IMG/VR virus record: IMGVR_UViG_3300032242_002041
Location: 164,287 to 228,286 of that record
Source of the DNA: a virus
Length of the DNA: 64,000 nucleotides
Reading direction: 5' to 3' (one strand)
In this document: in pieces, positions 26,305 to 42,484 of the stretch
Layout of the letters: every line of letters begins with the position of its first letter
Position numbering within the stretch: position 1 is the stretch's first letter
The notes under the pieces: generated by a model
The model's database searches: none
What the model was told of the DNA's origin: nothing
The model's input: the letters and a program-made list of their open reading frames with translations, nothing else
Position numbers and translations under genes: made by a program

Positions 26305-26943
26305 CTACTTACCGTCGACATGGAGCTGGCTACCATTATTGAAGCTGGGGCTAAATGGACTTTGTGCTACACGCCCGCCTTTGGATTGTGACCATGCATA
26401 GCCGGCACGATGTCCTGAACAGTCTTTGGTGCAAGGGCTACCAAGGAAGCTGAGTTCGTTTAATTCATCTTTGAGCCAGGTATCAGCAAAGGCTTTGCAC
26501 AATGCTTGAATTTTTTTATTTCGAGTAATTTCTAAATGATATGTTTTATTACCGGCTTTGGTTTGTTGACTAGGATCTCTATAGCCAGCATAGACTTTAT
26601 GTACCGGTGTACTACTGATCAAATCTCGACAGCTAGAACCCGCACGTTCAGGCATGGGTTCGGTGCAAGGACTACAGGTAGTCAGGATGATACTGCCATT
26701 GGGTATGTCGCCAAAACGGTCATGATACGCATCAATAGCCGCTCGTTCAGCGTGAACATCACCTGATTCGATCCAGTAGTTCAGTGCTGCCACACAGTTG
26801 TTGTTACGATCCAGCACCGCGGCTGCACACATCATGTAAGCATCGGGATCTCGACGCTGTCCGTCAATTACCAACTCACAAAGACGTACCAGGATTTCAT
26901 CTAGTTGCTTTCTATCATGTATTTGAAAATCACTTATGCGCAT
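26305..26943 (-). CDS. cytidine/deoxycytidylate deaminase-like protein with extra Cys/His domain
   Basis: 212 aa. HAERAAI (73-79) and the PC..C-type zinc region TCSPCTEP...SC give the deaminase site with a catalytic Glu. A second domain near the C-terminus contains CTKDCSGHRAGYAW and NNGSQL, a motif that recurs in T4-like aquatic phages. The N-terminus MRISDF fits the short peptide shared by several neighbours, suggesting possible packaging into the head. Substrate unclear (nucleotide or base). Confidence 0.75.
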   Translation of the reverse strand: MRISDFQIHDRKQLDEILVRLCELVIDGQRRDPDAYMMCAAAVLDRNNNCVAALNYWIESGDVHAERAAIDAYHDRFGDIPNGSIILTTCSPCTEPMPERAGSSCRDLISSTPVHKVYAGYRDPSQQTKAGNKTYHLEITRNKKIQALCKAFADTWLKDELNELSFLGSPCTKDCSGHRAGYAWSQSKGGRVAQSPFSPSFNNGSQLHVDGK

Positions 26944-27655
26944 CTTTAATCCAGTCGTCGGGAACTACACCGTGTTTTTCAACAAACAGCTCGTGCAGTT
27001 TTTTTGGAGTAATTTTGTATTTTTTGGCTATAGACTTCATCATGTGATCTATAGCATCGTAGCTGTAGGGATGGCGAAGATCTTTTTCAAGATCATCAAC
27101 ACTGCCTTCTTTTAATGGAATAACCTTGACATCTTTATCATACCGTTTCCAAGGTGTAAAGTTTTTGTTAGTTCTAATCGTATCAAAGTCAGCAACATAT
27201 ACACCGCCTGACTTGTTCCAGTCAGCACCGCCAACAAATTTCATGGACACACGGTCTCCTAACTTGTGCATGTCAGGGATTTGTATAGCCACATTCATAA
27301 CAAAGTTTTTATTGTTAGTTAAATCAGCATAACGGCTAGCTAGTTCGTTAGGAATATCAATAGTAACTGTATAGTTTTGTCGTAAGAAGTGCTGGGCCAA
27401 TTGCCTATATCTCTTTAATACCTGCGCCTGATTACTACTGTGATTTAACGCATAGGTAACTTCTAAATAAATGTGACGGCATTTGAATTGTTCGGCTATA
27501 GATTGAATGGTGTCAATGTCTTTGAACTGGTTGACAATCAAAGTTTTTTTGCCGTAGGCAGCAGTCCTCTCAACTTCAGGACCGATGATATAATCGGGTC
27601 TATTGCCGGTTGGATGCACATTTTTTGTGCTGGTAGTAAAGTCACTGGCTCTCAT
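26930..27655 (-). CDS. conserved phage protein, paralogue of the 17-kb gene
   Basis: 241 aa. GPEVERTAAYGKKTLIVN and RHIYLEVTYAL align with GTEVEHTPAFGRRTLFVVG and EHIYFGANQSF of the protein at 16927-17442, and similarity continues through both sequences. It carries an extra basic C-terminal extension and an MRASDF N-terminus like nearby putative internal proteins. Function unknown. Confidence 0.75.
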   Translation of the reverse strand: MRASDFTTSTKNVHPTGNRPDYIIGPEVERTAAYGKKTLIVNQFKDIDTIQSIAEQFKCRHIYLEVTYALNHSSNQAQVLKRYRQLAQHFLRQNYTVTIDIPNELASRYADLTNNKNFVMNVAIQIPDMHKLGDRVSMKFVGGADWNKSGGVYVADFDTIRTNKNFTPWKRYDKDVKVIPLKEGSVDDLEKDLRHPYSYDAIDHMMKSIAKKYKITPKKLHELFVEKHGVVPDDWIKDAHK

Positions 27656-30600
27656 TCAACACCAAGGATCTGTTGAACCTGATTGACATAAGCACTAACA
27701 TCACTGGTGCCAATTTCGTCTACGTCACCTACATTGTATGCCACTTCCTCAATGGCCTGTGTGACTTTATCTAGCCCAAATTCCATTATCAAATCAGTGT
27801 GCGCCACTAGGATACGCCTGATAATGGCGATCTCAACGGCTTCGCTACTGGTTGAATTTTCGTCCTCGACCAAGTCTTGTTCAAGTCGATTGATCAGTTT
27901 GGAAACTGTTGTTTCAAAGGACTGTATGCTGGGTTTACCCAATCGAGCCTGCTCAATGGCAGCTTCTTCGCTATCGCCACGTCGTGTGATGCTGACCATT
28001 CGAGTTTGAGGATTGTAATAGACCACATAGCCGCGGATCACACTTTTCTGTGGAATAGTAGTACCGGGCATTTCAAATTCTTCTGTGACTTTGTCCTCAA
28101 ATGGCAAATACCAGAACCAGTTTTGGAAACCACCTGGGTTGGTATCATAGTCCATATGCGCACGATTACGAGCACCAGCCATCATACGTTTGAACTCATT
28201 TTCTGCGCCATGTAGTTCAGCAATGTTTTCTAGCTCGTCGTACAGTTGACCAGCAAGAAAACTGTCCCTGTGACGTTCAATTTTAGGAGCCAGGCGGCGA
28301 TAAACTCTAGCCATTTCTGCTCGAACATCTGTAACAGTTTCGGCTACGCCTTGCTTGCGCTCGTAGTCACGAATGATGTCAGCCCGCATATTAGGATTAC
28401 GTTCAATAGCCCGTAGCACTGCCTCGGGATAACGTGCAGGTTGTTTTGCTTTAACTGCTATGTGAGCATCTGGCATGTCATTCCATTCACCATCATCATA
28501 ATCATCACTTTCGTTCTTGGGTTTGACATGATGTTTTTTCATGTTGATTGCAATAGCAGCCTGCTGTGCGGCATTGGCGGCTTCCTCAAAGTCATCTCGA
28601 GGATTCATGACAACCGAACGAGATTGAGGTTGATTAACTGATTTTGCTGTCGGAGATTGATTAATGGTTTGAGCTTGTGAGCCGGCCGCATTTCTATGAC
28701 CAATTGCACCAATAATACTATTAACATCATTACTGCCCTGCATACCGGCTGTATTTTGTAATATTTTCCATACCGCTTGTTTATTACTTGCGTTACCTAG
28801 TGCTGACATTAAATCATTTTGATTTTGAATTTTACCAGACTGAATTTGTTGTATAACAGCGGTAGGATTGACTACACTAGGACCACTGCTTTGTGCCTGA
28901 GCCGCACCGGCGCCGCCCAAGGCCATGGCACCTGCTAGGGCTGCACCACCTAATGCTGATTTCCAGCCTTCATCCAGATCAATATCAGCCGGAGCAACCC
29001 ATACTGTATCGTGAGTCCATTTTGTTGGATCTTTCTTGCGCATGGCGGCCACATAGGCTTCAGCTTCTCTAGTATTCATGGGTTTGCCAATCTTATTTGT
29101 GGATTTGATACGCTTGACTTGACCGTTTTGTTTGGTATACACCGCATAGTGGTCACGTAGTCCTGCGGCCCCACTTCCACCCCAATTGCCTTCCTTGACT
29201 GGTGTGTCTTGTTGAGGTGCTGGTTTTAGCAGTGTGCGATACTGTTGTTGAAATGCCGCTTTGCTCATACCATATGCAGTATAAAACTGGCGCTCATTCA
29301 TATGTTCTACGTCTTGACGCATGATATCTATATCACTCAAACTGTCGCTTTCATCTAACTCGTCGTACCAATCATCTTCTTCTTGTTTGTCAGCATACTG
29401 GTTGTATTCAACATCACTCAGGTGCATGCTGTGTTTACCGTGATTGTACAAGTCGACAATAACAAATGTTCCACTTGGACTGAGTTCATAGATCTCGCCA
29501 GTCTTGCCTTCAAATTCGTTGGGTGCTGTAACAATGATAGGATCACCCGGGTGTAATCGGTTAGCAGATTCGTCAATGTTTAATAAATCAAATTCATCTT
29601 CTGGATTAGGAACTGGTAGTGTCTGAGATTTAATCTGAGGAGCGGCAGGCTTGGCCTTAGGTTTAGATTTGGATTTGGAAGGTGCAACATCTAAATCACT
29701 AAACGGAGCCTGCACACGCGGAGTCTGTTGTTTTTTGGTCGTGGTCAAATTATCCTGATCTATGTTTAATGCCTGTGCGGCCTGTGCCGGCAGTGAGTTT
29801 ATTTGAGTTCGTAATTTTGCTATTTCGGCCTTGACATTATCTGATGGTGGCTGTTGTTGTAATTGATTAATTTGCATTTTAAGATCTTGTAGTTCTTTTT
29901 CAACTCCTGGATCTGCACCAGGCGCAATGATTGTTGTGGGCTCTGGGGTTATTGTCTGTGGTGTTGTCTTGGCTGCTTGTTTAGGACGTGTGGACTGTTT
30001 TGCTCCAGTCATTGATTGGATGGTGTTTTGTAAACGATCGTTAGTAGCTTGTATGCGAGCTAACTGAGCTTCAAGACTATTATTTTCAGAATCTAACCCG
30101 TCAATCTCACGCCCTTGCTCTTGGTCAAGTGATACTAATTTTTTTAAGAGTTCGTCTTGTTTAGTGTTAGCACCCTGAATAGCAGCCAACTGTTGATCAC
30201 TACGTTTTTGATGGTCCAATTCATCTTTGGCCAAAGCTGCCATAGCATTAGGAGCTGCAGGGTGCTTGGCTTGTATTTTTCTTACAGCGTTGGTGGTTTC
30301 GGCGTCGCCAAAGTTTGGATCTTCAGAATTTTTTTTTTGAGCTCGTTCTGAGACTGGGCTTATCTTAGGTTCAGCATACCCTGTCAATTTGGGCTGGAAA
30401 GGATCTGCGGGTTGTTTTAACTGTGGACGAGTGGTTACTTTTTTCTGCCCACCTAACCATAAGGCAAAATTATTACGATCAGCTAATGTTTGTAGTGCAA
30501 ATTGATTACGAGTTTGGCGGCTCATATTTTTTAATTTTAATAAAGTATGATATATTTGATTACGTGACATAGTAATTGGTTCAGGACTGTTCATCCAGCG

Positions 30601-31137
30601 GATAGTTGCAATATCAACATTGTCGTCATGTGCTTTACGCATTTGTTCGTAGGCATATTTGGCAGCAGCTACAGGAGAAATTGCGGCTGTTTGTTCTTTA
30701 ACTGTGGACTCGTATGTAGGACCAGTGTCGTCTCGACCTGCTAACCAATCAACAAAACTAGAAAAAGTCGATTTAGCTTTTCCTAACGCAGTATTGCTTG
30801 GAGGAGTAGCACCGGTTACACGTTGTTGCGGAGTAACTAAATCTGTACCAGCACGAACAGGTTGGGCGGGTGCTGGAACTTGGTCAGCTTCACCTAAGCT
30901 ACCATAGCCCATGCACTCATCTTTAATCTTGTAATAGCCGTCGCGCTCAGTTTTGCACTTTTGAAATTCTTTAACCAATGCCGCCTTAGATTCTGGAGTA
31001 GTAGCTGTTTTAGCACGAGCAACCAAGTCATCCATCTTCATAGCTAAATCGTCAATGCGACGTTGTTCTAATTGGTCAACAGCACCTTCTGCAAGGCGTC
31101 GTTCGTGATCTGTGTTAAATAGGTCTAATGCAAACAT
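27652..31137 (-). CDS. giant putative internal virion polyprotein, 1161 aa
   Basis: Low-complexity, helical and linker regions alternate with small domains. Visible parts: N-terminal helical pair with RRLAE-GAVD (LAE at 15-17); a charged/Gln-rich coiled coil about 305-460; a KOW/SH3-like beta domain about 527-580; an Ala/Gly-rich hydrophobic stretch at 725-749; a helical region after RKQGVAE (928-933). L/I/V-x-E sites followed by G, A, S or T recur at 15-17, 81-83, 521-523, 594-596, 647-649, 721-723 and 931-933, like the T4 prohead protease motif. It is probably processed and packaged. Overlaps its downstream neighbour by ATGA. Confidence 0.6.
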   Translation of the reverse strand: MFALDLFNTDHERRLAEGAVDQLEQRRIDDLAMKMDDLVARAKTATTPESKAALVKEFQKCKTERDGYYKIKDECMGYGSLGEADQVPAPAQPVRAGTDLVTPQQRVTGATPPSNTALGKAKSTFSSFVDWLAGRDDTGPTYESTVKEQTAAISPVAAAKYAYEQMRKAHDDNVDIATIRWMNSPEPITMSRNQIYHTLLKLKNMSRQTRNQFALQTLADRNNFALWLGGQKKVTTRPQLKQPADPFQPKLTGYAEPKISPVSERAQKKNSEDPNFGDAETTNAVRKIQAKHPAAPNAMAALAKDELDHQKRSDQQLAAIQGANTKQDELLKKLVSLDQEQGREIDGLDSENNSLEAQLARIQATNDRLQNTIQSMTGAKQSTRPKQAAKTTPQTITPEPTTIIAPGADPGVEKELQDLKMQINQLQQQPPSDNVKAEIAKLRTQINSLPAQAAQALNIDQDNLTTTKKQQTPRVQAPFSDLDVAPSKSKSKPKAKPAAPQIKSQTLPVPNPEDEFDLLNIDESANRLHPGDPIIVTAPNEFEGKTGEIYELSPSGTFVIVDLYNHGKHSMHLSDVEYNQYADKQEEDDWYDELDESDSLSDIDIMRQDVEHMNERQFYTAYGMSKAAFQQQYRTLLKPAPQQDTPVKEGNWGGSGAAGLRDHYAVYTKQNGQVKRIKSTNKIGKPMNTREAEAYVAAMRKKDPTKWTHDTVWVAPADIDLDEGWKSALGGAALAGAMALGGAGAAQAQSSGPSVVNPTAVIQQIQSGKIQNQNDLMSALGNASNKQAVWKILQNTAGMQGSNDVNSIIGAIGHRNAAGSQAQTINQSPTAKSVNQPQSRSVVMNPRDDFEEAANAAQQAAIAINMKKHHVKPKNESDDYDDGEWNDMPDAHIAVKAKQPARYPEAVLRAIERNPNMRADIIRDYERKQGVAETVTDVRAEMARVYRRLAPKIERHRDSFLAGQLYDELENIAELHGAENEFKRMMAGARNRAHMDYDTNPGGFQNWFWYLPFEDKVTEEFEMPGTTIPQKSVIRGYVVYYNPQTRMVSITRRGDSEEAAIEQARLGKPSIQSFETTVSKLINRLEQDLVEDENSTSSEAVEIAIIRRILVAHTDLIMEFGLDKVTQAIEEVAYNVGDVDEIGTSDVSAYVNQVQQILGVE

Positions 31138-31147
31138 TTATTTTTCC

Positions 31148-31960
31148 TTAAGCTTCGTCTATGTAATCTTGTGCTTCGTTGTGCTTACGTTGACGATGTG
31201 CAAACATTTCAATGGCCATTTCGGCCTCATCTAACGTTTTAAAACGTGTAGGCAAGCTACGGCCGGATCGACGAATTTCAAAACCATTATGCTCATTGCC
31301 GTGCATTTCCCAAAGTCCACATTCGTTAGTGATAGTTTTAACTGGACTATCTTCCTTGATGCTAACTCCGGGTTCTCCAGCAGGTTGTTCTGCGGGAATA
31401 ACACCGCTTAAGTCCGTACCAAGTTCTGACTCGTTGGCTATTAAATCTCGATCTTGTTTATCTTTTGATTTTAAATCGCCATCTTCGTGTTTTTTATCTT
31501 TAAGATCTGAATCTTTAATTTCTTGTTCAGCTTGTTTAATAAAATCTGTAAACGAACGTTTAACCTTGTCCAGGACATCCTCGCTAGTAATAGCTTCTGC
31601 TAAGTCCTGATTATGATAATTATCCCAGAACTCTTCCGGATCATCAAAGTAACGACTATATTCGTCATAGAACTCATCATAGTCCATTACTTGTGCATCG
31701 GCAATTAAGTCTTGTAATAGCGCAGGGTCTTTAATACCATGCCATGGTTCTTCATCATGTTCAACACTTTCTTCGCAGCCGCCAACCAACTTGCCTGCCA
31801 TTGGATTCTTGGGATCTTGTTTGGCAGTGAGTACTGCCACTGTCTTGGGTTTAAAAGTTGCGCCAAGTTGATTGACGCTTTTTTGATTCGCGTTTAGACC
31901 TTCTTCCAACATACGAAGACGTTCTACAATAGTATAGATATCGTTATGGTCTTGTGCCAC
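31148..31960 (-). CDS. acidic putative virion protein, 270 aa
   Basis: Starts at GTG. Contains RLRMLEEGLNANQKSV near the N-terminus (possible L-E-E-G processing site at 18-21), an acidic Tyr/Asp-rich middle, a Lys/Asp-rich linker and a small C-terminal domain with the motif GFEIRRSGRSLPTRF. The type recurs in T4-like aquatic phages beside similar large proteins. Function unknown. Confidence 0.6.
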   Translation of the reverse strand: MAQDHNDIYTIVERLRMLEEGLNANQKSVNQLGATFKPKTVAVLTAKQDPKNPMAGKLVGGCEESVEHDEEPWHGIKDPALLQDLIADAQVMDYDEFYDEYSRYFDDPEEFWDNYHNQDLAEAITSEDVLDKVKRSFTDFIKQAEQEIKDSDLKDKKHEDGDLKSKDKQDRDLIANESELGTDLSGVIPAEQPAGEPGVSIKEDSPVKTITNECGLWEMHGNEHNGFEIRRSGRSLPTRFKTLDEAEMAIEMFAHRQRKHNEAQDYIDEA

Positions 31961-31963
31961 AGA

Positions 31964-32404
31964 TCATGCCCTTGCTTCTTTTAAACTAGAACGTAATTGC
32001 CAAGCAAACTTATTGGTTTGACTTAAACGTTCAGCAATAAAATTTGCTATGTCTTGTTTGTTTTCTTTGGTGGCAGCTGCAAAACATTGGTTTAATAACC
32101 CAACCATCTCTTCGCTATTGGCCAACAATTCTTCAATCATTAATCGGGCACGGGGCACTTTGAGTTGCCCGGGGATTACGCTTAGTTCTAGGAAACGTTC
32201 CATACTACCTGGGGAATATTCTTGTAGACTGCGAATGTATTCGGCTGTGGGATCTATGGCACTATAGGCATCTTCATAGATCTTTTGGAAAAACTTATGA
32301 TATTGATAAAAGTCTGGCGATTCAATATTCCAGTGGAAAGCATGTGCTTTTACATAATAGGCAAATTGAGTTCCTAACAAGGTTTTTAACAAATCAGCTA
32401 ACAT
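31964..32404 (-). CDS. Dps/ferritin-like protein
   Basis: 146 aa, four-helix type. The Dps-like signature is AHAFHWNI (about 20-27), followed by FYQYHKFFQKIYEDAYSAID, which supplies the second-helix ferroxidase-type residues. Dps proteins oxidise iron and shield DNA. It lies among putative capsid-cargo genes, so a role in protecting packaged or injected DNA is possible. The next gene's ATG overlaps its stop region (TAATG). Confidence 0.75.
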   Translation of the reverse strand: MLADLLKTLLGTQFAYYVKAHAFHWNIESPDFYQYHKFFQKIYEDAYSAIDPTAEYIRSLQEYSPGSMERFLELSVIPGQLKVPRARLMIEELLANSEEMVGLLNQCFAAATKENKQDIANFIAERLSQTNKFAWQLRSSLKEARA

Positions 32405-32613
32405 TACTTTTTCCGTTTATATTTCTTGTACTCTGCAGGCGTATTGGGCGTTGCATCGTCAGTAGTGTATTTAGTGCCAGAAAAGAAATGGCCACCATTT
32501 CTACTAATCATGCCACCTAAGGGCATGGCTACAGGGGCTATACTGCCTGCGCAAGTAGATCCACTACTTGCGCCACTGTCTTCTCGTAAGTCAACAAATT
32601 CGTGCAATCTCAT
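32404..32613 (-). CDS. small virion-region protein, 69 aa
   Basis: Begins MRLHEFVDLRED, one of the shared M-(R/K)-x-x-(E/D)-F N-termini. The rest is Ser/Gly-rich (SGASSGSTCAGSIAPVA, GGMISRNGGHFF) with a basic end. Similar small proteins occur in T4-like aquatic phages. Coupled to both neighbours by overlaps. Confidence 0.65.
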   Translation of the reverse strand: MRLHEFVDLREDSGASSGSTCAGSIAPVAMPLGGMISRNGGHFFSGTKYTTDDATPNTPAEYKKYKRKK

Positions 32614-32894
32614 TCTGCAATCCTTAATACGTTATTTTCTACGGTTCCAGGGCCAAAATCTACACGGATATTTTGTACTTGCAACTGAGCTAAATGCGGT
32701 GGAACTAATTCCCAACGTAACCGATACTCTCCGGGCTCTGCTTCAATCTGTAGCATTTCTTCAAGATATTCTGTGGTCCAATACCAGGTACGCTCGGCAA
32801 ACAATTCGTCATTGACGTACACGCGATAGATAGGATTTAACCCTTCCCAGTCGCAGTCTACATCGGCTAACACACGTACAAAATGTTTATTCAT
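32610..32894 (-). CDS. hypothetical beta-rich protein, 94 aa
   Basis: Immunoglobulin- or carbohydrate-binding-like strand pattern (PIYRVYVNDELFAERTW, EYRLRWELVPPH). No catalytic motif. A GCTAAATA late-like box lies only 4 nt before the ATG and there is no Shine-Dalgarno. Confidence 0.6.
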   Translation of the reverse strand: MNKHFVRVLADVDCDWEGLNPIYRVYVNDELFAERTWYWTTEYLEEMLQIEAEPGEYRLRWELVPPHLAQLQVQNIRVDFGPGTVENNVLRIAE

Positions 32895-32898
32895 AGTG

Positions 32899-32906
32899 TA
32901 TTTAGC
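32899..32906 (-). promoter_or_regulatory. late-like promoter box abutting a start codon
   Basis: GCTAAATA on the minus strand, 4 nt before the ATG at 32894. Confidence 0.4.
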
Positions 32907-32919
32907 GTAATTTAAACTG

Positions 32920-33654
32920 TTATATTGATAGATATCTTATAATCAAAACGCCAGGCTGAGCCGATAATCGATTACAATAGTTAGACTCGGCTAGATCGTA
33001 GCCGCCGCCAGCGCCATAGCTGGTATATCCTGTGCCATTAAGGCCAATACCGCCTGGGCCCTTGCCACTGCCGCCGCCGGCATAATAAACCATGTTACCA
33101 GTGATATCACTAGGTATACCTACACCACCACGTCCGCCAACTCCATCTAGAGTGCCCTGTCCGCCAGAGCCAGCAGCGCCACCCCCGCCACCTGGACCAA
33201 ACGGTGGATATCCACCACCAGCTGGAGCACCGCCGGCATAGCCTTGTCCGGGTATGCCAGCACCGCCTACAAAGTTTTGAAAATTGATATGTGTGACACC
33301 CAAGGTTCCGCCACCGCCGCCGGATCCACCACTAAAGCCATTGCCATAAAATCCACCCTGCCCGCCACCGTTGGCTGTCATGTTTAAGAAACTGCTGTTG
33401 TTGCCCGGATCACCAACAATTACTGGATATGATCCTGTGTTAATTGTAACGTTGCCTGTGAGTACTCCACCTGCACCACCACCGGCTACATAGGTACTCT
33501 GTGGCAGAGCTGCATTGCCGCCGCCGGCTACAAGCAAGTATTGGACGTCTGCAAGTGTACCACCCGACACAGTTAAACTACCATTGGCCTCAAAGGTTAC
33601 GACAGTATAATCACCGTCGGTGGTGACTGTACCAGTGGATGTTACCACGGTCAT
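32920..33654 (-). CDS. glycine-rich adhesin-like protein
   Basis: 244 aa. Starts with a beta-domain, then long Gly-rich loops (GGGSGGGGG, GPGGGGGAAGSGG) and a C-terminal GVLIIRYL strand. The pattern resembles phage Gly-rich tip adhesins and related receptor-binding modules. Likely on the virion surface or tail tip. Neighbouring genes overlap by ATGA. Confidence 0.6.
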   Translation of the reverse strand: MTVVTSTGTVTTDGDYTVVTFEANGSLTVSGGTLADVQYLLVAGGGNAALPQSTYVAGGGAGGVLTGNVTINTGSYPVIVGDPGNNSSFLNMTANGGGQGGFYGNGFSGGSGGGGGTLGVTHINFQNFVGGAGIPGQGYAGGAPAGGGYPPFGPGGGGGAAGSGGQGTLDGVGGRGGVGIPSDITGNMVYYAGGGSGKGPGGIGLNGTGYTSYGAGGGYDLAESNYCNRLSAQPGVLIIRYLSI

Positions 33655-33863
33655 CGAACTTCCTTTACACTGCCAATATGCCAGAGTGGCACACCATACT
33701 GTGCTTGCATTAGTTGACGGGCCAGTTGTGCGTTGGGCGCAGTCACAGTTACATCAATATAGCCTACATAATTAGGTTGAGTAATCTTAACCGGCGCTGT
33801 CCATAGCTTGGCAGCCACGGCTGTGTTTTGTTTTACGGCTTCCGATATTTCGTAGAATCTCAT
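33651..33863 (-). CDS. small protein with capsid-targeting-like N-terminus, 70 aa
   Basis: Start set at MRFYEISEA, whose ATG overlaps the upstream stop. I-S-E followed by A fits the T4 gp21 cleavage pattern. The rest is a small alpha/beta domain (VTVTAPNAQLARQLMQAQYG). Function unknown. Confidence 0.6.
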   Translation of the reverse strand: MRFYEISEAVKQNTAVAAKLWTAPVKITQPNYVGYIDVTVTAPNAQLARQLMQAQYGVPLWHIGSVKEVR

Positions 33864-34693
33864 TGTCCTGTCCACTTGGCTATCATAGTTGCTTGACTGG
33901 TATAAATGCCAGTGCCTCTTCGTCCGCTACGCATACTACTGCTACCAGGTTTTACTGGAAATGTATATCTAGTCCAATCCGCCGTTTGATCAACGACCTG
34001 GTCACCGCGTTGTGGCCGGTATTCATCAGTGGGCGTCATGTTGTAACCTAGGACTTCAACTCCTGGAATACTATTTAACATTAGCCACATCTGTTGTCCG
34101 TGACGGGTTTGTGTTTCGCCAGCTTCTACTGTGAGCTTTAATATGCTTAAGGCAATGCCATACAAGGCTTTGCCAAGCCCCTGTCCACGAAAATCAGGAT
34201 CAACCACTACAGTATCAACTTTCCAAGTTTTCATGTAGTCCTGAGTATAATACAAATCCATTTCGGCAGCTAATATTTGGCCATCAAAGATCATAATTTC
34301 TATATTTTCAGCATCGGGTTGATTAACAGCATAGTCAAACTTACTACCGCCTGGCAGGGGTTTTGTTTTGGGCGGAGTTTTAGGATCGGCCAAGGTGCCT
34401 TTTTTGCCCCAGTCACCTAGTTCACTTTTTGGCAAGCGGGCTATCTCAAATAATTCTGGATCAAAGTCATCAGCACTGATAAAATGTGTAGTGCCATCAC
34501 GATGTTGTAGTTGCACAGCATCATCCTCTGATTCAACTTGATGTATGCTCCAACCAAGACTGTTTAGTACATGTTCAATCTGTGGTTGTCGGTCCGTGGC
34601 GTTCCACCAACGATTGGCCAGAACAAAAATAGGATCTGGAACATCATCATTGTTGTCACGCTCAGGACTGGGAGCAAATTCTCTTAATCTCAT
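33860..34693 (-). CDS. GNAT-type acetyltransferase with capsid-targeting-like N-terminus
   Basis: 277 aa. The GNAT acetyl-CoA motif is VVVDPDFRGQGLGKAL (162-177). The N-terminus MRLREFAPSPE fits the shared peptide. About 120 residues precede the acetyltransferase domain. Placement among putative cargo suggests that it may be injected and acetylate a host target; this is inference. Confidence 0.75.
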   Translation of the reverse strand: MRLREFAPSPERDNNDDVPDPIFVLANRWWNATDRQPQIEHVLNSLGWSIHQVESEDDAVQLQHRDGTTHFISADDFDPELFEIARLPKSELGDWGKKGTLADPKTPPKTKPLPGGSKFDYAVNQPDAENIEIMIFDGQILAAEMDLYYTQDYMKTWKVDTVVVDPDFRGQGLGKALYGIALSILKLTVEAGETQTRHGQQMWLMLNSIPGVEVLGYNMTPTDEYRPQRGDQVVDQTADWTRYTFPVKPGSSSMRSGRRGTGIYTSQATMIAKWTGQ

Positions 34694-35169
34694 AGGTATC
34701 CTACCCAGGCTGGTCCTGCGTATCCTTGTGGAAATGCCTTTAATGCTTGTGTGGTTCTATGTCCACCTTCAACCAACGCATAGCCGTCGGGCATTTTTAT
34801 AACAATGATGGGTTCTCCACTGACCCCTTGTTGTTGTATCTTGGCGGCTTGTGCGGCATGCCGTTCGGCATCTCTGGGCACCTGATTGGGATTTTTAGAG
34901 CCGCCTTCTCTTTTACGAATTTGTTCCTGTGTAGCAGGTGTAAAGATGTCCATGGTAATAGGCAATTTTTCTAAACGCCATTGCCGGATTGGATATTCCT
35001 GTAACAAATGCTGTATGTGGGCTTTTTTATCTTCAAGTTCCATGTTATCAGGAATACGACCATACAACCAATCTTTGACCACATAGTCAGGCCAGTGTTT
35101 AGGCACCATGCTGCGTATTAAACGCCATGCTCCGCCTTGATATTCAAACAAAAATTCTTCAGCTCTCAT
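34690..35169 (-). CDS. ParB/sulfiredoxin-like domain protein
   Basis: 159 aa. The C-terminal half has PIIVIKMPDGYALVEGGHRT (120-139), the ParB-like nuclease/Srx signature with GGHR. The N-terminus MRAEEF fits the shared peptide. ParB-like domains in phage injected proteins act as nucleases or NTP-dependent switches in known families; activity here is not provable from sequence. Confidence 0.7.
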   Translation of the reverse strand: MRAEEFLFEYQGGAWRLIRSMVPKHWPDYVVKDWLYGRIPDNMELEDKKAHIQHLLQEYPIRQWRLEKLPITMDIFTPATQEQIRKREGGSKNPNQVPRDAERHAAQAAKIQQQGVSGEPIIVIKMPDGYALVEGGHRTTQALKAFPQGYAGPAWVGYL

Positions 35170-36249
35170 TTAGCAGTTCCAACGACGGCGTGCCTTGCAG
35201 ATAGCTTTGTCAGGAGTTTTTGCACAGCTAATATTGTGCATCTTCATTTGACCACGACTGCGTGAGCAGTAGCTCTTGCGACGCTTGCTGGCTTTGCTAC
35301 CTTTTTTGAGCTTGGAAGGTTTAGTAGTCACAGCAGTTTGTAGTTTGCTACCAGGATGCTCACGGCGATATGTTTTGACGGCTTTCTTACTCATGCCATC
35401 TGTGCGGTCTCGATTGTTGACCTTCTGCCAGGCTTCGGTTTCCATAATAGTTGTTGTGGTTGCAAACACATACAGTTCATCATCGTCCAAGCTCTCTAGG
35501 TCTTCCCAGATCACTTCGCTATCTACGCCATTACGCTCAGCAAGAGTTTCAATAATGTTTTCGATTAAGTCAAATTCTTCAGCCAGTTCTGTGTCTTCCG
35601 CCACACCTTGCTGTCTTTGGACAGGGCTGTCTCTAAGTGCATCTCGATAAAACTCTTTGAAATCTTGTGCCAATTCTCTTGCTGACCACGCCCAAGTTTG
35701 ACGGTCCCAATCGTCTGTCATCTCAGCTTCAAGTTTAGCACCTGGTGCTCGACCACGACTAAACCCTATACGAACAGTATGTTCAATTTGTTTATTAACC
35801 AACTTTGCAAATAGTTTGCCATTGGGATTTGGATTAATTGTTACTTTATATCCGTGTCGTTCGGCAAACTGTATCGTTGGCTGTAAGAACTGGATTTTAG
35901 GATCAACAACACCAGCTTGAGGCGGAACAGCTTCCGCCACACTCTCGTTAGGCACACAGTTACGCACCTGGCCGCCATTCCGGCCTTTCTTTGTACCTTC
36001 GGCATGTTTGCCAGGCCAGCAACGAGTATAGCCATTGGCATCTTTAGCACCCTTCTTGATTTCATTGAGATTGCCATGTGTTTGACACATGCCACAGTCT
36101 TCACAGACCATTTCCATTTCTGTGCTTTCATTGTGCTTTTTCTTACCAGCACAATGAGCTCGTTGCGAGAAGCCCTTGGGGTGGCTACAGTTGATACTGC
36201 TCTTGTATTTTTGACTCCACTTTTCAGTGATAAATTCATAGGCTTTCAT
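35170..36249 (-). CDS. multidomain putative internal protein, Cys-rich ends
   Basis: 359 aa. Begins MKAYEFITE, close to the T4 internal-protein targeting sequence MKTYQEFIAE. A Cys/His/Lys-rich N-terminal block, a central domain after SVAE (103-106) and a helical block after QGVAE (214-218) follow; the basic C-terminus contains more Cys (SYCSRSRGQMK, RRRWNC). The V-A-E sites look like protease linkers. The basic ends suggest DNA binding in the capsid. Function unknown. Confidence 0.65.
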   Translation of the reverse strand: MKAYEFITEKWSQKYKSSINCSHPKGFSQRAHCAGKKKHNESTEMEMVCEDCGMCQTHGNLNEIKKGAKDANGYTRCWPGKHAEGTKKGRNGGQVRNCVPNESVAEAVPPQAGVVDPKIQFLQPTIQFAERHGYKVTINPNPNGKLFAKLVNKQIEHTVRIGFSRGRAPGAKLEAEMTDDWDRQTWAWSARELAQDFKEFYRDALRDSPVQRQQGVAEDTELAEEFDLIENIIETLAERNGVDSEVIWEDLESLDDDELYVFATTTTIMETEAWQKVNNRDRTDGMSKKAVKTYRREHPGSKLQTAVTTKPSKLKKGSKASKRRKSYCSRSRGQMKMHNISCAKTPDKAICKARRRWNC

Positions 36250-39200
36250 TCTTTGTGTTTCCTTTTCTGTCCTCTACGCATATTTAACTGCCAACGTGCC
36301 AGTTGTCCTTTACGACCTTTGGCATGACTCGCTTTTTCTAATTCAGCCATTGTAGCACCTTTGGGGATGCCGTGACGAACGCTATCGCCTGGACGACCAG
36401 GTCCTTTGCCGTCGGCAAAATTTTCTTGTAATCCTCTGACTGACATATTGTGTCCAGTGCTACGTTCTAGTTCGTTGGCACGAGCATCAGCCTGCGACCA
36501 AGGCACGTTATCCATTCTGCTGATCTCGCGTCCTAAGGTAACATCGTATATTGCCCAAGTGCCTACTCTATTGGTAGCATCCGCGGGTTGGTCAAAGTTC
36601 TGTGCCACATCTGGCTCAACATCCTTGACTGCTGTTTCTTGCTTGCGTGGTCTATAACCATAGTCGTGAGTGTCGTTTGGCAAACCCTTCATTGTCAGCC
36701 ATTTATCAAACGTTGCATCTGCTTCTTGTTTGTCAGCGGCATAGAACCGGTCCACTACACGTAGATTTACATCGCCAAGATTTACAATTTCGTAGTTGTA
36801 GTCTGTGGGCTTTTTGGTTTGAGTAATGCGCTTGGCTAACTTGGCACGTGGTGTCATAGTTGCTGGATCTTCCCAAGGGCGAACCTGGAAGCCAATGCCT
36901 TGATCCACATACTTGTCGTAGACCTGATCAGCCACTTCGCCTTTGCTCTTGCCCTTGACTATTTCCAGCGTCTTGCCAGTGTTGACATCATACACTTCCC
37001 AGTCTTGCTCACCCATGTTGACCAGCTGATATTCACCAGAGTCCAAGGCTTCACGACCATACTTGGCCCATACTCGGTTTTTAACTTCACTTTCGGGGTA
37101 ACCATTCCACTCGGCACCAGGAACTGGTTCCCACCGACCGTTGACGTTTTGATACAGTCTAAAACGCTGATTCATTTTCTTTTCTTTACCGATGGTCTTT
37201 TCGGCCCATTGTTTCTTGAGTTGTTCTGCGGTGAGTTCACCCGCGGCATATTGACTGAACAGAGCTAGTTCACTGTCGCCTTCGGGCGCTACTAACTTGT
37301 ACAACTTCTTGGCATACTCTCTGCGTTCTTCAGCAGGGTTAGCCGCCAAACTCATAGCACGGGCAAAACGCAACATGGTTGTTTGTAATTTTTCCGGATC
37401 AGCTGACTCTTCTGCTAACCAATCACCACCTGGCGATCTAAATTCAATATAGCCTTTTTGTATGTGGGCACTGGTGTACTTGCCATCGCCTACCCCTTTT
37501 TGTATTTCTTTGTGTGCTAGTTCAATCAAGCCACTCTGCATGAGTTTGATCGCACCCATAGGATCAGCACGACCGCCTTTGATGTTTTCACGGAACTTGC
37601 TCATGGCACTCTTGGTGTAGGTATTGGCTTCGCGACCAAATGACCGTAACACATACTCGTCACCCAAGAACAGGATTAATTTCAAGTAGTCAACATCGCC
37701 ACCTTTGAATGGCACACTAACGCCCATGTGCAGGCCAGTTGAGCTGTTGGTATAGGCATTACCTTCTTGAGGATTATTGGCCCAGTCACATACTTGTTGT
37801 AGTTTTTCTAATGCTGTCAACAGGGGCATAGGAGGACTTACAATTTCCAACCCAAAATCTTCACGATCATCGGGTTCTAAACTGGTATCAGGTTCTACAA
37901 TAAACTGTCCTTCTCGGCGAGTAGCTTGGTGATAACCGCTACTTACTTTAACCGGCATGTCAACGGCACTGTTCAAACTGTCACCAATTTCATCCCAATC
38001 ACGACTTCCGTCATTGCCACCGCCACCGGTCATGTAAGGCCAGTCTAAGTCATATGAATTGGCCACATCACTCATCCAGCGTAGACCCACATCATCAAAG
38101 AATCCTGAATCGTCATCAATTTGATAATTGTCGCGGAAATCATCCAGTGCGGCATCCCAGTTGGCACCTTCCTTACGTACTTCATCTGCTATTAAATCAT
38201 CCAACAAGCCTTCGGCTTCGTTTTGTGCATCCAGGTATTTGTCGTAAAGTGGGTTGGCTTCAGCATACAAGATCTGTTCTTTACTGCTTGTGAACTTAGG
38301 TGCCCGTTCGCCCGCTTGTATAATGTCATTCATTTCATCGTCGGTTAAATCCAACAACTCCAACTGTTTTTGTATTTCGTTGTCAAGATCCCAATCGCCT
38401 TCATCTACTAGAACTTTACGAATCAAGTCCTCGGCTTCTTCTCTAAAGTCTTTGTGCATTTGCTCGTCATACCACTCATAATACTGTTCGTCAAGTCCTT
38501 CTTGTAAGGCACGCTCTTGTCTAGGACTTAAATTTCCGTAGTCGCCACCACTAAAAAAGTCTATGATATCTTGGATGCTACGACAACGTTCGTCCTGATC
38601 ATAGTCAGGTTCCATTTCGTAGTCACTGTCGCCGTTGTTGCTGGTGTCACGGAAGATTAACTCTGCTTCAAACCCAGCACGTATACCCTGGGCTTCTGGA
38701 CTCCGTGCCCACTGCATTAGATTGCTTGGACTCATACGTACTTCGTCTAGTTGCTCAACTGATTCGGCTACCTTTGTTTTTTTGAACTGTGATAATTCTA
38801 AGGCTAATTTTTCAAACAGGCCATTAGGATTAGCAATCTGCGGTTGTCCTTGACTGTTGGTTTTTAATTTTAATTTGTTAGCTTCTTTGCCAACTTGACC
38901 TGGCTTGATATCTTGTGTAAGCGCCATTGAATAGCGTGGATCTCGGGCCTGTTTCCGTGTAGGGATGTATCCCGATGCTGACTCCTCTACACCTTGCTTG
39001 GCACGTTGCTTGGCACGTTTGGCACGTTGTAAGTAGTATTTTTTTAATTCTAAATCTTTTGGTGTAGCAGTTCTGATCAGATCTAAATGTTGATCCACTG
39101 GAACTTTTTCAACTTCTATTGGTTTAAGTTCGGTTACGCTGGGCACGGAAGTAAACTCTCTGTCATTGCCGCCGGGCTCAAACAAAGGACGACCATTGGC

Positions 39201-40652
39201 ATCATACCTTGGTAACTTGTGTAGGTAAACCATTTGACCGTGTCTAATTTTGCCGCTGAATAAAACCAATTGCGGATCATTGGGAAATCCAGCAGTATCA
39301 GACCCTCGTTCTGTAAGGCCCATTGCTATAGCAAAATTTTTGTCGGCTGTGGCATAAATGGCTTTTTTATTACTCTTAGGATTGCCGCCGGTGTCTTCTG
39401 CCTGTTGTGGCGTCAGTACTGGAATCTCGTTTCTAGATCCGTGCCATAGATATTCTTGTGACGCACTTTCTTTAACTTCATCAGCGTGTAAGCCTTGGGC
39501 TTGCCCTACAGCAAAGTAGTCCGGGTGTAGTCTAGCATAGTCGCGCATTAAGATACCAGCACGGGCATTGGCTTCATTTTCCCATGGTGATCCTGTTTCT
39601 CCAGCTGTTGGTCCCATACGTTGACCATCGCGTTCGTGTTGATGCTTGTGTGTAAGTTCGTGTGCCACAGTGCGCAACACATCCATGATGTGACGATGGC
39701 CCCAGGCTACTTCAAGCAAGTGTTGATTGTTGATGTAACGGCCAAAAGTTTTGTTACGCACAGACCATTCAGGATCTTTGCGTAATTTAATTGTGGGCAT
39801 CTGCTTGAGTTTTAATTCTTTAAAACAAAAGTCAATAAAATCTTTTAGTATCTCTTCGTCTGAGGGAACAGGGTCTGGTTCCGTTACGGCTTCAACTATC
39901 TCTGGAGTTCGAAATCCATACTTTACAGGAGTCTTAACTACAGTTTTTTCTTTTAAACTGAGTTCCTGATCTTTGGCTGCGTTACGAGCATCATATAATT
40001 CTTTAATCTTGCCTTGACTACGTAACATTTTAAATGCCAAATTTTCTGGTCCAAATTCGCCGTGTTGTTCAAGTCCAGTTTGGCGCATCTTTTTAATCTT
40101 TTCAGCCATACAGGTCATCTGTTTTAAGTTGCCTGATTTGATAGCACGTTCAATTTGGTGCCCTACTGACTCAAATTTGTTTCGAGTGCTGGTATCGTCT
40201 ACCACTGACTTGACACGACGCGGAACTTGAATCCAGTCATTGTTTAAGATACTGTAAATGCCTTGACTAATATGCGGAGCATCGGCATCTTGAACATATA
40301 GTTCAACATCGTATCCACCAATTGTAATATTGTGTTGTTCGTTATACTGAAACTTTTTAGCATCAAACAGTTCACGATAAACTTCGTTATCGGGCATTTT
40401 AACTACTAGGTGTAGATCGATGTCTGAATTGGGTGTGTATGTGTAAGCGGCATTGCTACCACTAATAGTTATGTCTTTGAGGTCAAGGTCTGTAACGCCC
40501 AGAAACTCGCGAAAATCTTCAGCTATTAACAATAGCTGTGCTTTAACTTCTGGCTTTAAATGCTCAGTAGAATCCCATAATCTAGGATTTAATCGATTAT
40601 TAAATTTGACGGCATCGTCAAGGTTATAGGCGTCTAATTCAAGAATATTCAT
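36246..40652 (-). CDS. giant polyvalent internal protein: nucleotidyltransferase, metallopeptidase, ART-like, amidoligase
   Basis: 1468 aa from MNILEL. Domains: (1) about 40-240, pol-beta/MNT nucleotidyltransferase with GSNAAYTY...SDIDL (65-80); (2) about 265-385, zinc peptidase with HELTH (331-335) and a downstream ENEAN; (3) about 400-520, ADP-ribosyltransferase-like with WHGSR (403-407), AIYAT (431-435) and REF (498-500), suggesting an H-Y-E triad; (4) about 640-1110, amidoligase-like domain with GFEAEL (660-665), DTSLEP and STGLHMGV; (5) basic C-terminal repeats with WxVYDVxTG. Linkers VKE-S, VEE-S, VAE-S and LDE-V separate the domains. Resembles the polyvalent proteins described in phages. 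Confidence 0.75.
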   Translation of the reverse strand: MNILELDAYNLDDAVKFNNRLNPRLWDSTEHLKPEVKAQLLLIAEDFREFLGVTDLDLKDITISGSNAAYTYTPNSDIDLHLVVKMPDNEVYRELFDAKKFQYNEQHNITIGGYDVELYVQDADAPHISQGIYSILNNDWIQVPRRVKSVVDDTSTRNKFESVGHQIERAIKSGNLKQMTCMAEKIKKMRQTGLEQHGEFGPENLAFKMLRSQGKIKELYDARNAAKDQELSLKEKTVVKTPVKYGFRTPEIVEAVTEPDPVPSDEEILKDFIDFCFKELKLKQMPTIKLRKDPEWSVRNKTFGRYINNQHLLEVAWGHRHIMDVLRTVAHELTHKHQHERDGQRMGPTAGETGSPWENEANARAGILMRDYARLHPDYFAVGQAQGLHADEVKESASQEYLWHGSRNEIPVLTPQQAEDTGGNPKSNKKAIYATADKNFAIAMGLTERGSDTAGFPNDPQLVLFSGKIRHGQMVYLHKLPRYDANGRPLFEPGGNDREFTSVPSVTELKPIEVEKVPVDQHLDLIRTATPKDLELKKYYLQRAKRAKQRAKQGVEESASGYIPTRKQARDPRYSMALTQDIKPGQVGKEANKLKLKTNSQGQPQIANPNGLFEKLALELSQFKKTKVAESVEQLDEVRMSPSNLMQWARSPEAQGIRAGFEAELIFRDTSNNGDSDYEMEPDYDQDERCRSIQDIIDFFSGGDYGNLSPRQERALQEGLDEQYYEWYDEQMHKDFREEAEDLIRKVLVDEGDWDLDNEIQKQLELLDLTDDEMNDIIQAGERAPKFTSSKEQILYAEANPLYDKYLDAQNEAEGLLDDLIADEVRKEGANWDAALDDFRDNYQIDDDSGFFDDVGLRWMSDVANSYDLDWPYMTGGGGNDGSRDWDEIGDSLNSAVDMPVKVSSGYHQATRREGQFIVEPDTSLEPDDREDFGLEIVSPPMPLLTALEKLQQVCDWANNPQEGNAYTNSSTGLHMGVSVPFKGGDVDYLKLILFLGDEYVLRSFGREANTYTKSAMSKFRENIKGGRADPMGAIKLMQSGLIELAHKEIQKGVGDGKYTSAHIQKGYIEFRSPGGDWLAEESADPEKLQTTMLRFARAMSLAANPAEERREYAKKLYKLVAPEGDSELALFSQYAAGELTAEQLKKQWAEKTIGKEKKMNQRFRLYQNVNGRWEPVPGAEWNGYPESEVKNRVWAKYGREALDSGEYQLVNMGEQDWEVYDVNTGKTLEIVKGKSKGEVADQVYDKYVDQGIGFQVRPWEDPATMTPRAKLAKRITQTKKPTDYNYEIVNLGDVNLRVVDRFYAADKQEADATFDKWLTMKGLPNDTHDYGYRPRKQETAVKDVEPDVAQNFDQPADATNRVGTWAIYDVTLGREISRMDNVPWSQADARANELERSTGHNMSVRGLQENFADGKGPGRPGDSVRHGIPKGATMAELEKASHAKGRKGQLARWQLNMRRGQKRKHKE

Positions 40653-41671: not shown

Positions 41672-42484
41672 TTATTTTTTCCTAGGCCTACATTCGTCAA
41701 TATAGTCTTGACTGTCACGTAAAATTTGAATTTGTTCTCGCAGATATTGGATATTTTTTTGTAATTTTGCCATACGATTTTCGCGCATAACTGTCACAGG
41801 TTGATCACCGGCAAATACCTTTTCCTGCCCATAAATTACAGCATCTTGAGGCTCATTAACACCCAAACGTTGATCAAAAATATCTTTTAATTCTGGATCT
41901 GGAGCACCATACAAATCAGTAATGATTTGATTACGATCGTTTTCATTGCCATCAACATACATTTTTCTCACAGTGCTGGCAGAATCTGCATCTTGACCCA
42001 GGACTTTAAATGGAATAGTATCCACAACATCTACATAGGCTGTGCCATCGGAAATAGGCTTGCAATCTTTTAAATTTTTAGGCAGGGGTTGTGGGTTAGC
42101 TGGACTTCCGTCCCGCTTGGGAGCAAAGCTAAATCTAGGACGTTGAATAACTTTGCCATCAGCATCTTTAATTAACTGTTGATCTTTTGCTCCCACAGCA
42201 AAAATTAATACAGTATTTTCTGGATCTGGAATATTGGTATATTCTGTAATATGATAAGGATTAACTACTTTGACAATGTCGCTGGCCGGAACGCCCATTT
42301 TGGTTAACATGGTAACTTTGTCACTGTAGCTAAATGGACTGCTTGCTCCGTCTTGTTTTTCAGTTGTAGCAATTTTGACACGCCCGCCCAGTGGAGTGTA
42401 TTTCTTGACAAGATAGTCATAAACACCTTTATGACCTCGGTGGAATAGATGGAATCTGCCTGGATATATTACAAGATAGTTCAT
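41672..42484 (-). CDS. nucleotidyltransferase (NMNAT/cytidylyltransferase superfamily)
   Basis: 270 aa. The YPGRFHLFHRGHKGVYDYL start holds the HxGH nucleotide site (FHRGH), and STVRKMY is in the position of the second ATP motif. The family joins NMN, pantetheine-P, glycerol-P or similar groups to a nucleotide. With nadE in the window an NAD role is possible. A coiled-coil tail (QKNIQYLREQIQILRD) is added at the end. Confidence 0.75.
   Translation of the reverse strand: MNYLVIYPGRFHLFHRGHKGVYDYLVKKYTPLGGRVKIATTEKQDGASSPFSYSDKVTMLTKMGVPASDIVKVVNPYHITEYTNIPDPENTVLIFAVGAKDQQLIKDADGKVIQRPRFSFAPKRDGSPANPQPLPKNLKDCKPISDGTAYVDVVDTIPFKVLGQDADSASTVRKMYVDGNENDRNQIITDLYGAPDPELKDIFDQRLGVNEPQDAVIYGQEKVFAGDQPVTVMRENRMAKLQKNIQYLREQIQILRDSQDYIDECRPRKK

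Follow-up and report, generated by a model that had tools for sequence, protein, structure and literature searches.

Seven genes of a phage known from metagenomic sequence begin with a short shared leader that is very probably a T4-type capsid-targeting propeptide, serving a large cargo of enzymes. By analogy with T4, the virus probably carries the tagged enzymes within its particle and delivers them along with its DNA. A packaging tag had been proposed in a sequence-only reading, and we support it because related phages show a peptide consensus on unrelated bodies, their records and this one contain S77 protease and capsid genes, the end of the tag matches the capsid cleavage site, and tagged proteins appear in the virion proteomes of cyanophage relatives. 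The window is a stretch of 64,000 nucleotides (bases 164287-228286 of a 228,286-base IMG/VR record).

All seven open reading frames with similar starts were found on the minus strand (Table 1), where they belong to a run of closely packed genes. M(R/K)xx(E/D)(F/I/L) occurs at seven of about 13 N-termini in this run. Record-wide, M[RK]xx[ED][FIL] is present at eight of the 279 N-terminal ATGs of called open reading frames, six of which lie in the run; the seventh, the gene beginning MRLHEF, is absent from this set because it overlaps a longer frame on the opposite strand. Internal methionines of the record match the leader pattern in 3 of 1200 cases, and at this rate the binomial chance of at least 7 matches in 13 N-termini is 3e-15.

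Table 1. Tagged genes and adjoining features, in window coordinates.
Feature	Position	Strand	Leader (position)	Further properties
Deaminase-family protein	26305..26943	-	MRISDF (26926-26943)	PF00383, E=3.9e-8
MRASDF protein	26930..27655	-	MRASDF (27638-27655), without IxE	C-terminal part matches phrog_10346, E=5e-11
1161-residue mosaic protein	27652..31137	-	Divergent, MFALDLFNTDHERRLAE (31087-31137)	Internal QGVAE, 28339-28353
69-residue protein	32404..32613	-	MRLHEFVDLRE (32581-32613)	Leader followed by stretch like the mature capsid N-terminus; 15-member family
70-residue protein	33651..33863	-	MRFYEISE (33840-33863)	11-member family of tagged relatives
GNAT-type protein	33860..34693	-	MRLREF (34676-34693), without IxE	PF00583, E=1.4e-4, above cut-off
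ParB-like protein	34690..35169	-	MRAEEFLFE (35143-35169)	Weak PHROG ParB matches, E=0.001 to 0.004
359-residue mosaic protein	35170..36249	-	MKAYEFITE (36223-36249)	C-terminal DUF6321, PF19846, E=3.3e-8
Junction DNA word CAAGGTGTGGCGGAAGA (one mismatch)	35594..35610	-		Codes for Q-G-V-A-E
Multi-domain polyvalent-type protein	36246..40652	-	MNILELDAYN	Nucleotidyltransferase and amidoligase-like parts

A usable (I/L)xE-type site is present in only four of the seven leaders (MKAYEFITE, MRAEEFLFE, MRFYEISE and MRLHEFVDLRE), and cleavage is plausible for these four tags only; the deaminase, MRASDF and GNAT proteins have the front half of the leader alone. The MRFYEI start sits within a frame that has a possible alternative GTG start at 33875. 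Two adjoining large genes, encoding the 1161-residue and polyvalent-type proteins, have divergent leaders, the former of which is kept in four relatives. A second small tagged group lies at the opposite end of the record and comprises MRAREFIGE, MRACEFISE (GTG start), MKIADI and MKNFQQYLAE, the last of the T4-style ten-residue form. MRAREFIGE and MRACEFISE belong to a tandem pair of small genes (L002:629-1021 and L002:1018-1401) with a common C-terminal end, GFKGYPR; FKGY is the commonest four-residue word among the tagged proteins of relatives.

The cargo in the window consists of a deaminase, a GNAT protein, a weakly ParB-like protein and a polyvalent-type protein. In the 55-member deaminase family, Phe6 is invariant and Asp/Glu at position 5 universal, and the N-terminus continues straight into the domain; this tag may therefore serve targeting alone, or have a partly structural role. 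The MRASDF protein has two relatives that we could find, and the N-terminal module of the GNAT-type protein also occurs in otherwise different proteins. For the polyvalent-type protein, an inner ATG was taken as the start; PF01909 scored above the cut-off and PF12224 just below it, phrog_36119 matched with E=2e-40, and metallopeptidase and ART motifs were spotted by eye only. At the family level the bodies are unrelated, as had been suggested, though the larger proteins are mosaics that share modules. Searches of NCBIfam and PDB returned little on the cargo proteins. Midway through the tagged cluster, a Dps/ferritin-like gene (31964-32404) is without a tag; a glycine-rich, repeat-like protein of 244 residues (32920-33654), also inside the cluster, has none either. 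An untagged cytidylyltransferase-like gene (41672-42484) adjoins the cluster and weakly resembles gp154, a tagged virion protein of S-CREM2. Tagged proteins of relatives include sigma-70 region 4, NUDIX, iron/manganese superoxide dismutase, ADP-ribosyltransferase, and M23 and M48 peptidases. T4 Alt, too, is an ADP-ribosyltransferase.

The sequence-only reading had pointed to a search of N-termini across related phages. The N-termini of relatives give a sharp peptide consensus, M-(R/K)-A-x-E-F-(I/L/V)-x-E. The relatives are 93 loci obtained from two protein searches of IMG/VR. Within them, a loose motif occurs at 185 of 1259 N-terminal ATGs and at 11 of 4456 internal methionines. Given this motif, which leaves residues 7-9 free, residue 7 is Ile, Leu or Val in 73% of cases and residue 9 is Glu in 58%, against a background in the protein bodies of about 17% and 6%, respectively. 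When the bodies were clustered without their first 12 residues, the leader was found on 73 unrelated families, 52 of them with the strict form, in a set that takes in a small number of control loci and loci retrieved with the tag pattern. MRAxEFIxE is almost the sole consensus in an alignment of 105 tagged proteins, which were chosen by motif, making the alignment an illustration and not a test. A pattern scan of IMG/VR found at least 120 stretches, as against a total of 23 when F and I were exchanged in a control pattern. We reject a chance origin of the leader on the internal-methionine and permuted-pattern controls. In literature text searches, we found nothing on capsid-targeting sequences (CTS) in metagenomic T4-like phages.

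Synonymous codon choice at A3, E5, F6, I7 and E9 of the tag hardly departs from the background in those genes, and the lone codon bias is at R2, towards AGA. A preference for AGA near gene starts is not unusual. Because the tag codons are at background, selection, as judged from codon usage, acts on the tag peptide and not on the DNA. We rejected a DNA-level or translation-level origin of the tag on the same codon data, AGA at codon 2 being the exception.

A T4-type head module is located elsewhere in the record, outside the window. It contains a portal gene (phrog_213), an S77 (gp21-type) prohead protease (PF03420, E=1.4e-25; phrog_207), a gene in the gp22 position whose sole match is phrog_10922 (annotated function unknown), and a gp23-type major capsid protein (PF07068, E=3.1e-98). 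On this gene content, the record is that of a T4-like phage. The S77 protease and Gp23 occur together in 19 of 30 records that bear the tag or the junction word described below, and in 15 of the 16 such records of at least 185 kb. S77 was found in one of 17 control contigs, a weak control given that most of these contigs are short. In an alignment of capsid proteins of the clade, including that of the present phage, an invariant LxE directly precedes the predicted mature N-terminus, which suggests that the tag ends in the type of site expected to be cut by the S77 protease. The 69-residue protein provides a second sign: its leader MRLHEFVDLRE is followed by DSGASSGSTCAGSIA, resembling LRE followed by NASSGSTVSGNIA in the phage's own capsid protein (shuffle p=0.0004; compared stretches, LREDSGASSGSTCAGSIA and LRENASSGSTVSGNIA, respectively). 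A tag followed by the same capsid-arm-like stretch is likewise seen in 15 relatives. The match suggests that the glutamate ending its leader is a maturation site.

These features bear on whether the leader might instead be a virion tag for the tail, the baseplate or another virion compartment outside the capsid interior. Several tagged relatives are peptidoglycan hydrolases, a phage tail lysozyme among them, and tail genes are found near one tagged pair at the start of the record; the hydrolases call for caution, as they may belong to the tail. We nevertheless regard such a tag as improbable, since the leader resembles the T4 head signal and has a head-protease site at its end, most of the cargo consists of soluble enzymes, and a small tagged protein copies the capsid-protein arm.

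Virion proteomes have been published for two relatives, in tables that give the coverage of proteins. For S-CREM2, 52 virion proteins were detected according to Table 3 of PMC10665884. The pattern M[KR]x(3,4)F[ILVF]xE fits four S-CREM2 proteins, gp6 (SAM hydrolase), gp13, gp14 (kinase) and gp154 (cytidylyltransferase), and that table places all four in the virion. The hypergeometric chance of this result is about 0.003, or 0.0002 without known structural proteins, but this figure shifts with the pattern used, and little weight should be put on its exact size. Three forms were tried after some cyanophage N-termini were known; p is 0.055 for the loosest (0.006 with structural proteins set aside) and 6e-4 for the middle one (2.6e-5). 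The published list for S-SZBM1 contains 30 virion proteins, among them the gp140 cytidylyltransferase with a nine-residue leader, MRFRQFIIE; gp191 (MKSFKSFLSE) and gp192 (MKTFKQYITE) are absent from this list. We take these proteomes as support for packaging: every protein of S-CREM2 with the T4-style tag was detected, and one of three in S-SZBM1. Two window proteins have homologues in S-CREM2 virions: the N-terminal nucleotidyltransferase part of the polyvalent-type protein is 36% identical over 227 residues to gp156, and the C-terminal module of the 359-residue protein is 69% identical over 88 residues to gp137. Neither gp156 nor gp137 has a canonical tag. A virion protein of S-CREM2 annotated as Cas9-like (OR473000.1 7704-10313, L375) contains a tag-like RFASFMAE at about residues 18-25, not at its start.

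The proteomes also weigh on the idea that the leader is an intracellular signal (for degradation, host targeting or translation start) with no relation to the virion. Roles of this sort are open to short N-terminal peptides, and codon 2 shows a preference for AGA. This explanation seems to us very improbable, as tagged enzymes and homologues of window proteins were found in CsCl-purified virions of relatives, the codons beyond the second are at background, and the S77 protease and capsid genes occur in the same records. Least probable of all is that the N-termini are similar through inheritance within a few related genes or through start-region composition, without shared function: the deaminase leader is indeed continuous with its domain and related loci are non-independent samples, but the leader is found on unrelated body families and the controls are far lower.

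If the leader is a capsid-targeting propeptide, its front half, with a basic residue at position 2, a hydrophobic one at 3, an acidic one at 5 and an aromatic or aliphatic one at 6, would bind the assembling prohead core, and any protein behind it would enter the head. Where residues 7-9 are (I/L/V)xE, the gp21-type S77 protease would cut after the glutamate at maturation and free the cargo, which would then pass with the DNA into the host and take over or disarm the cell. For this phage, binding to the core, cleavage and injection are our inferences, the last from T4. Against this explanation, three of the seven window leaders lack a cut site, the deaminase leader continues into its domain, two tagged S-SZBM1 proteins were not detected, the S-CREM2 p value varies with the pattern, and gp156 and gp137 lack the canonical tag.

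The mosaic proteins have a second recurring feature. At their module junctions, Q-G-V-A-E-G is encoded by a nearly fixed in-frame 18-base word, CAAGGTGTGGCGGAAGGC (loci L013-L365). At 77 [QEK]GVAE sites found by protein sequence, alanine is encoded by GCG in 64 (background 7%, p ~1e-59) and valine by GTG in 60 (background 25%); p values for both codons are too small, as some junction sites share descent. Exact 17-mers of the word lie in the QGVAE frame of the longest open reading frame in 173 of 175 cases. At 156 junctions, 123 left and 129 right flank families meet in 154 combinations; for 18 of the left families, at least two different right partners are seen. Given the frozen codons, the fixed frame and the many flank combinations, the word behaves as a frame-keeping joining site at the DNA level. 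An origin as a tRNA or cellular sequence is unsupported, exact 18-mers numbering just 26, scattered, in 257 Gb of cellular genomes. We saw no significant link between the word and the N-terminal leader, a leader-like pattern being present in 13 of 73 word-bearing frames and 95 of 848 others (p=0.13), and a literature text search for QGVAEG found nothing.

V-A-E resembles a protease site, and that it may be cut is our guess. A tentative reading, which we think rather unlikely, is that the cargo consists of exchangeable cassettes, with CAAGGTGTGGCGGAAGGC as the site of module recombination and Q-G-V-A-E/G serving as a prohead-protease site (cut at the slash) that separates them inside the head. 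If true, one gene behind one capsid tag would deliver several independent effectors. The junction word is a more novel lead than the leader.

With the leader, hypothetical genes of uncultivated T4-like phages become a testable list of head-packaged effectors, recognisable from their first nine residues. T4 ipII carries MKTYQEFIAE (checked in NC_000866). According to PMC9026906, residues 4 and 7 of the T4 CTS drive targeting and residues 8 and 10 processing, with cleavage after (L/I)xE; aspartate at residue 10 gives targeting without cutting. The likeness of MKAYEFITE to the T4 peptide, remarked on in the sequence-only reading, extends to the I/L-x-E site and to the spacing, residues 3/6 and 7/9 of this phage being spaced as 4/7 and 8/10 of T4. 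As with IPI, IPII and IPIII, a short N-terminal leader precedes unrelated bodies, and both phages have T4-type protease and capsid genes; the gene in the gp22 position, with phrog_10922 as its sole match, is a candidate core gene. The leader differs from the T4 CTS in having nine residues instead of ten, with arginine and alanine at positions 2 and 3, and its cargo spans dozens of families, many of them enzymes and part of them without a cut site. That the leader works like the T4 CTS is supported by the sequence features we compared, except that the cut site is not on every tag.

In phiKZ and SPN3US, a gp21-like protease cuts the head ejection proteins, which are cargo of the head, after (S/A)xE propeptides; they have another P3 residue, and we found no short shared leader reported in the accessible parts of those papers. 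The T4-like cyanophages S-CREM2, S-SZBM1 and S-CRM01 have T4-style leaders on a virion kinase, SAM hydrolase and cytidylyltransferase. In the accessible text, the cyanophage papers present the tagged proteins as virion-associated enzymes, and we did not find the leader named there as a shared signal; it offers one reason why unrelated enzymes recur in cyanophage virions. Polyvalent proteins (Iyer et al. 2017, PMC5512222) are long, contain several conflict-type domains and are predicted to be packaged and injected. The present cargo may resemble them in its nucleotidyltransferase, GNAT, ART, ParB-like and peptidase domains. Whereas their processing is attributed to built-in peptidase domains, we propose a capsid tag and prohead-protease sites, and the leader may link T4 internal proteins with polyvalent proteins by a single delivery signal.
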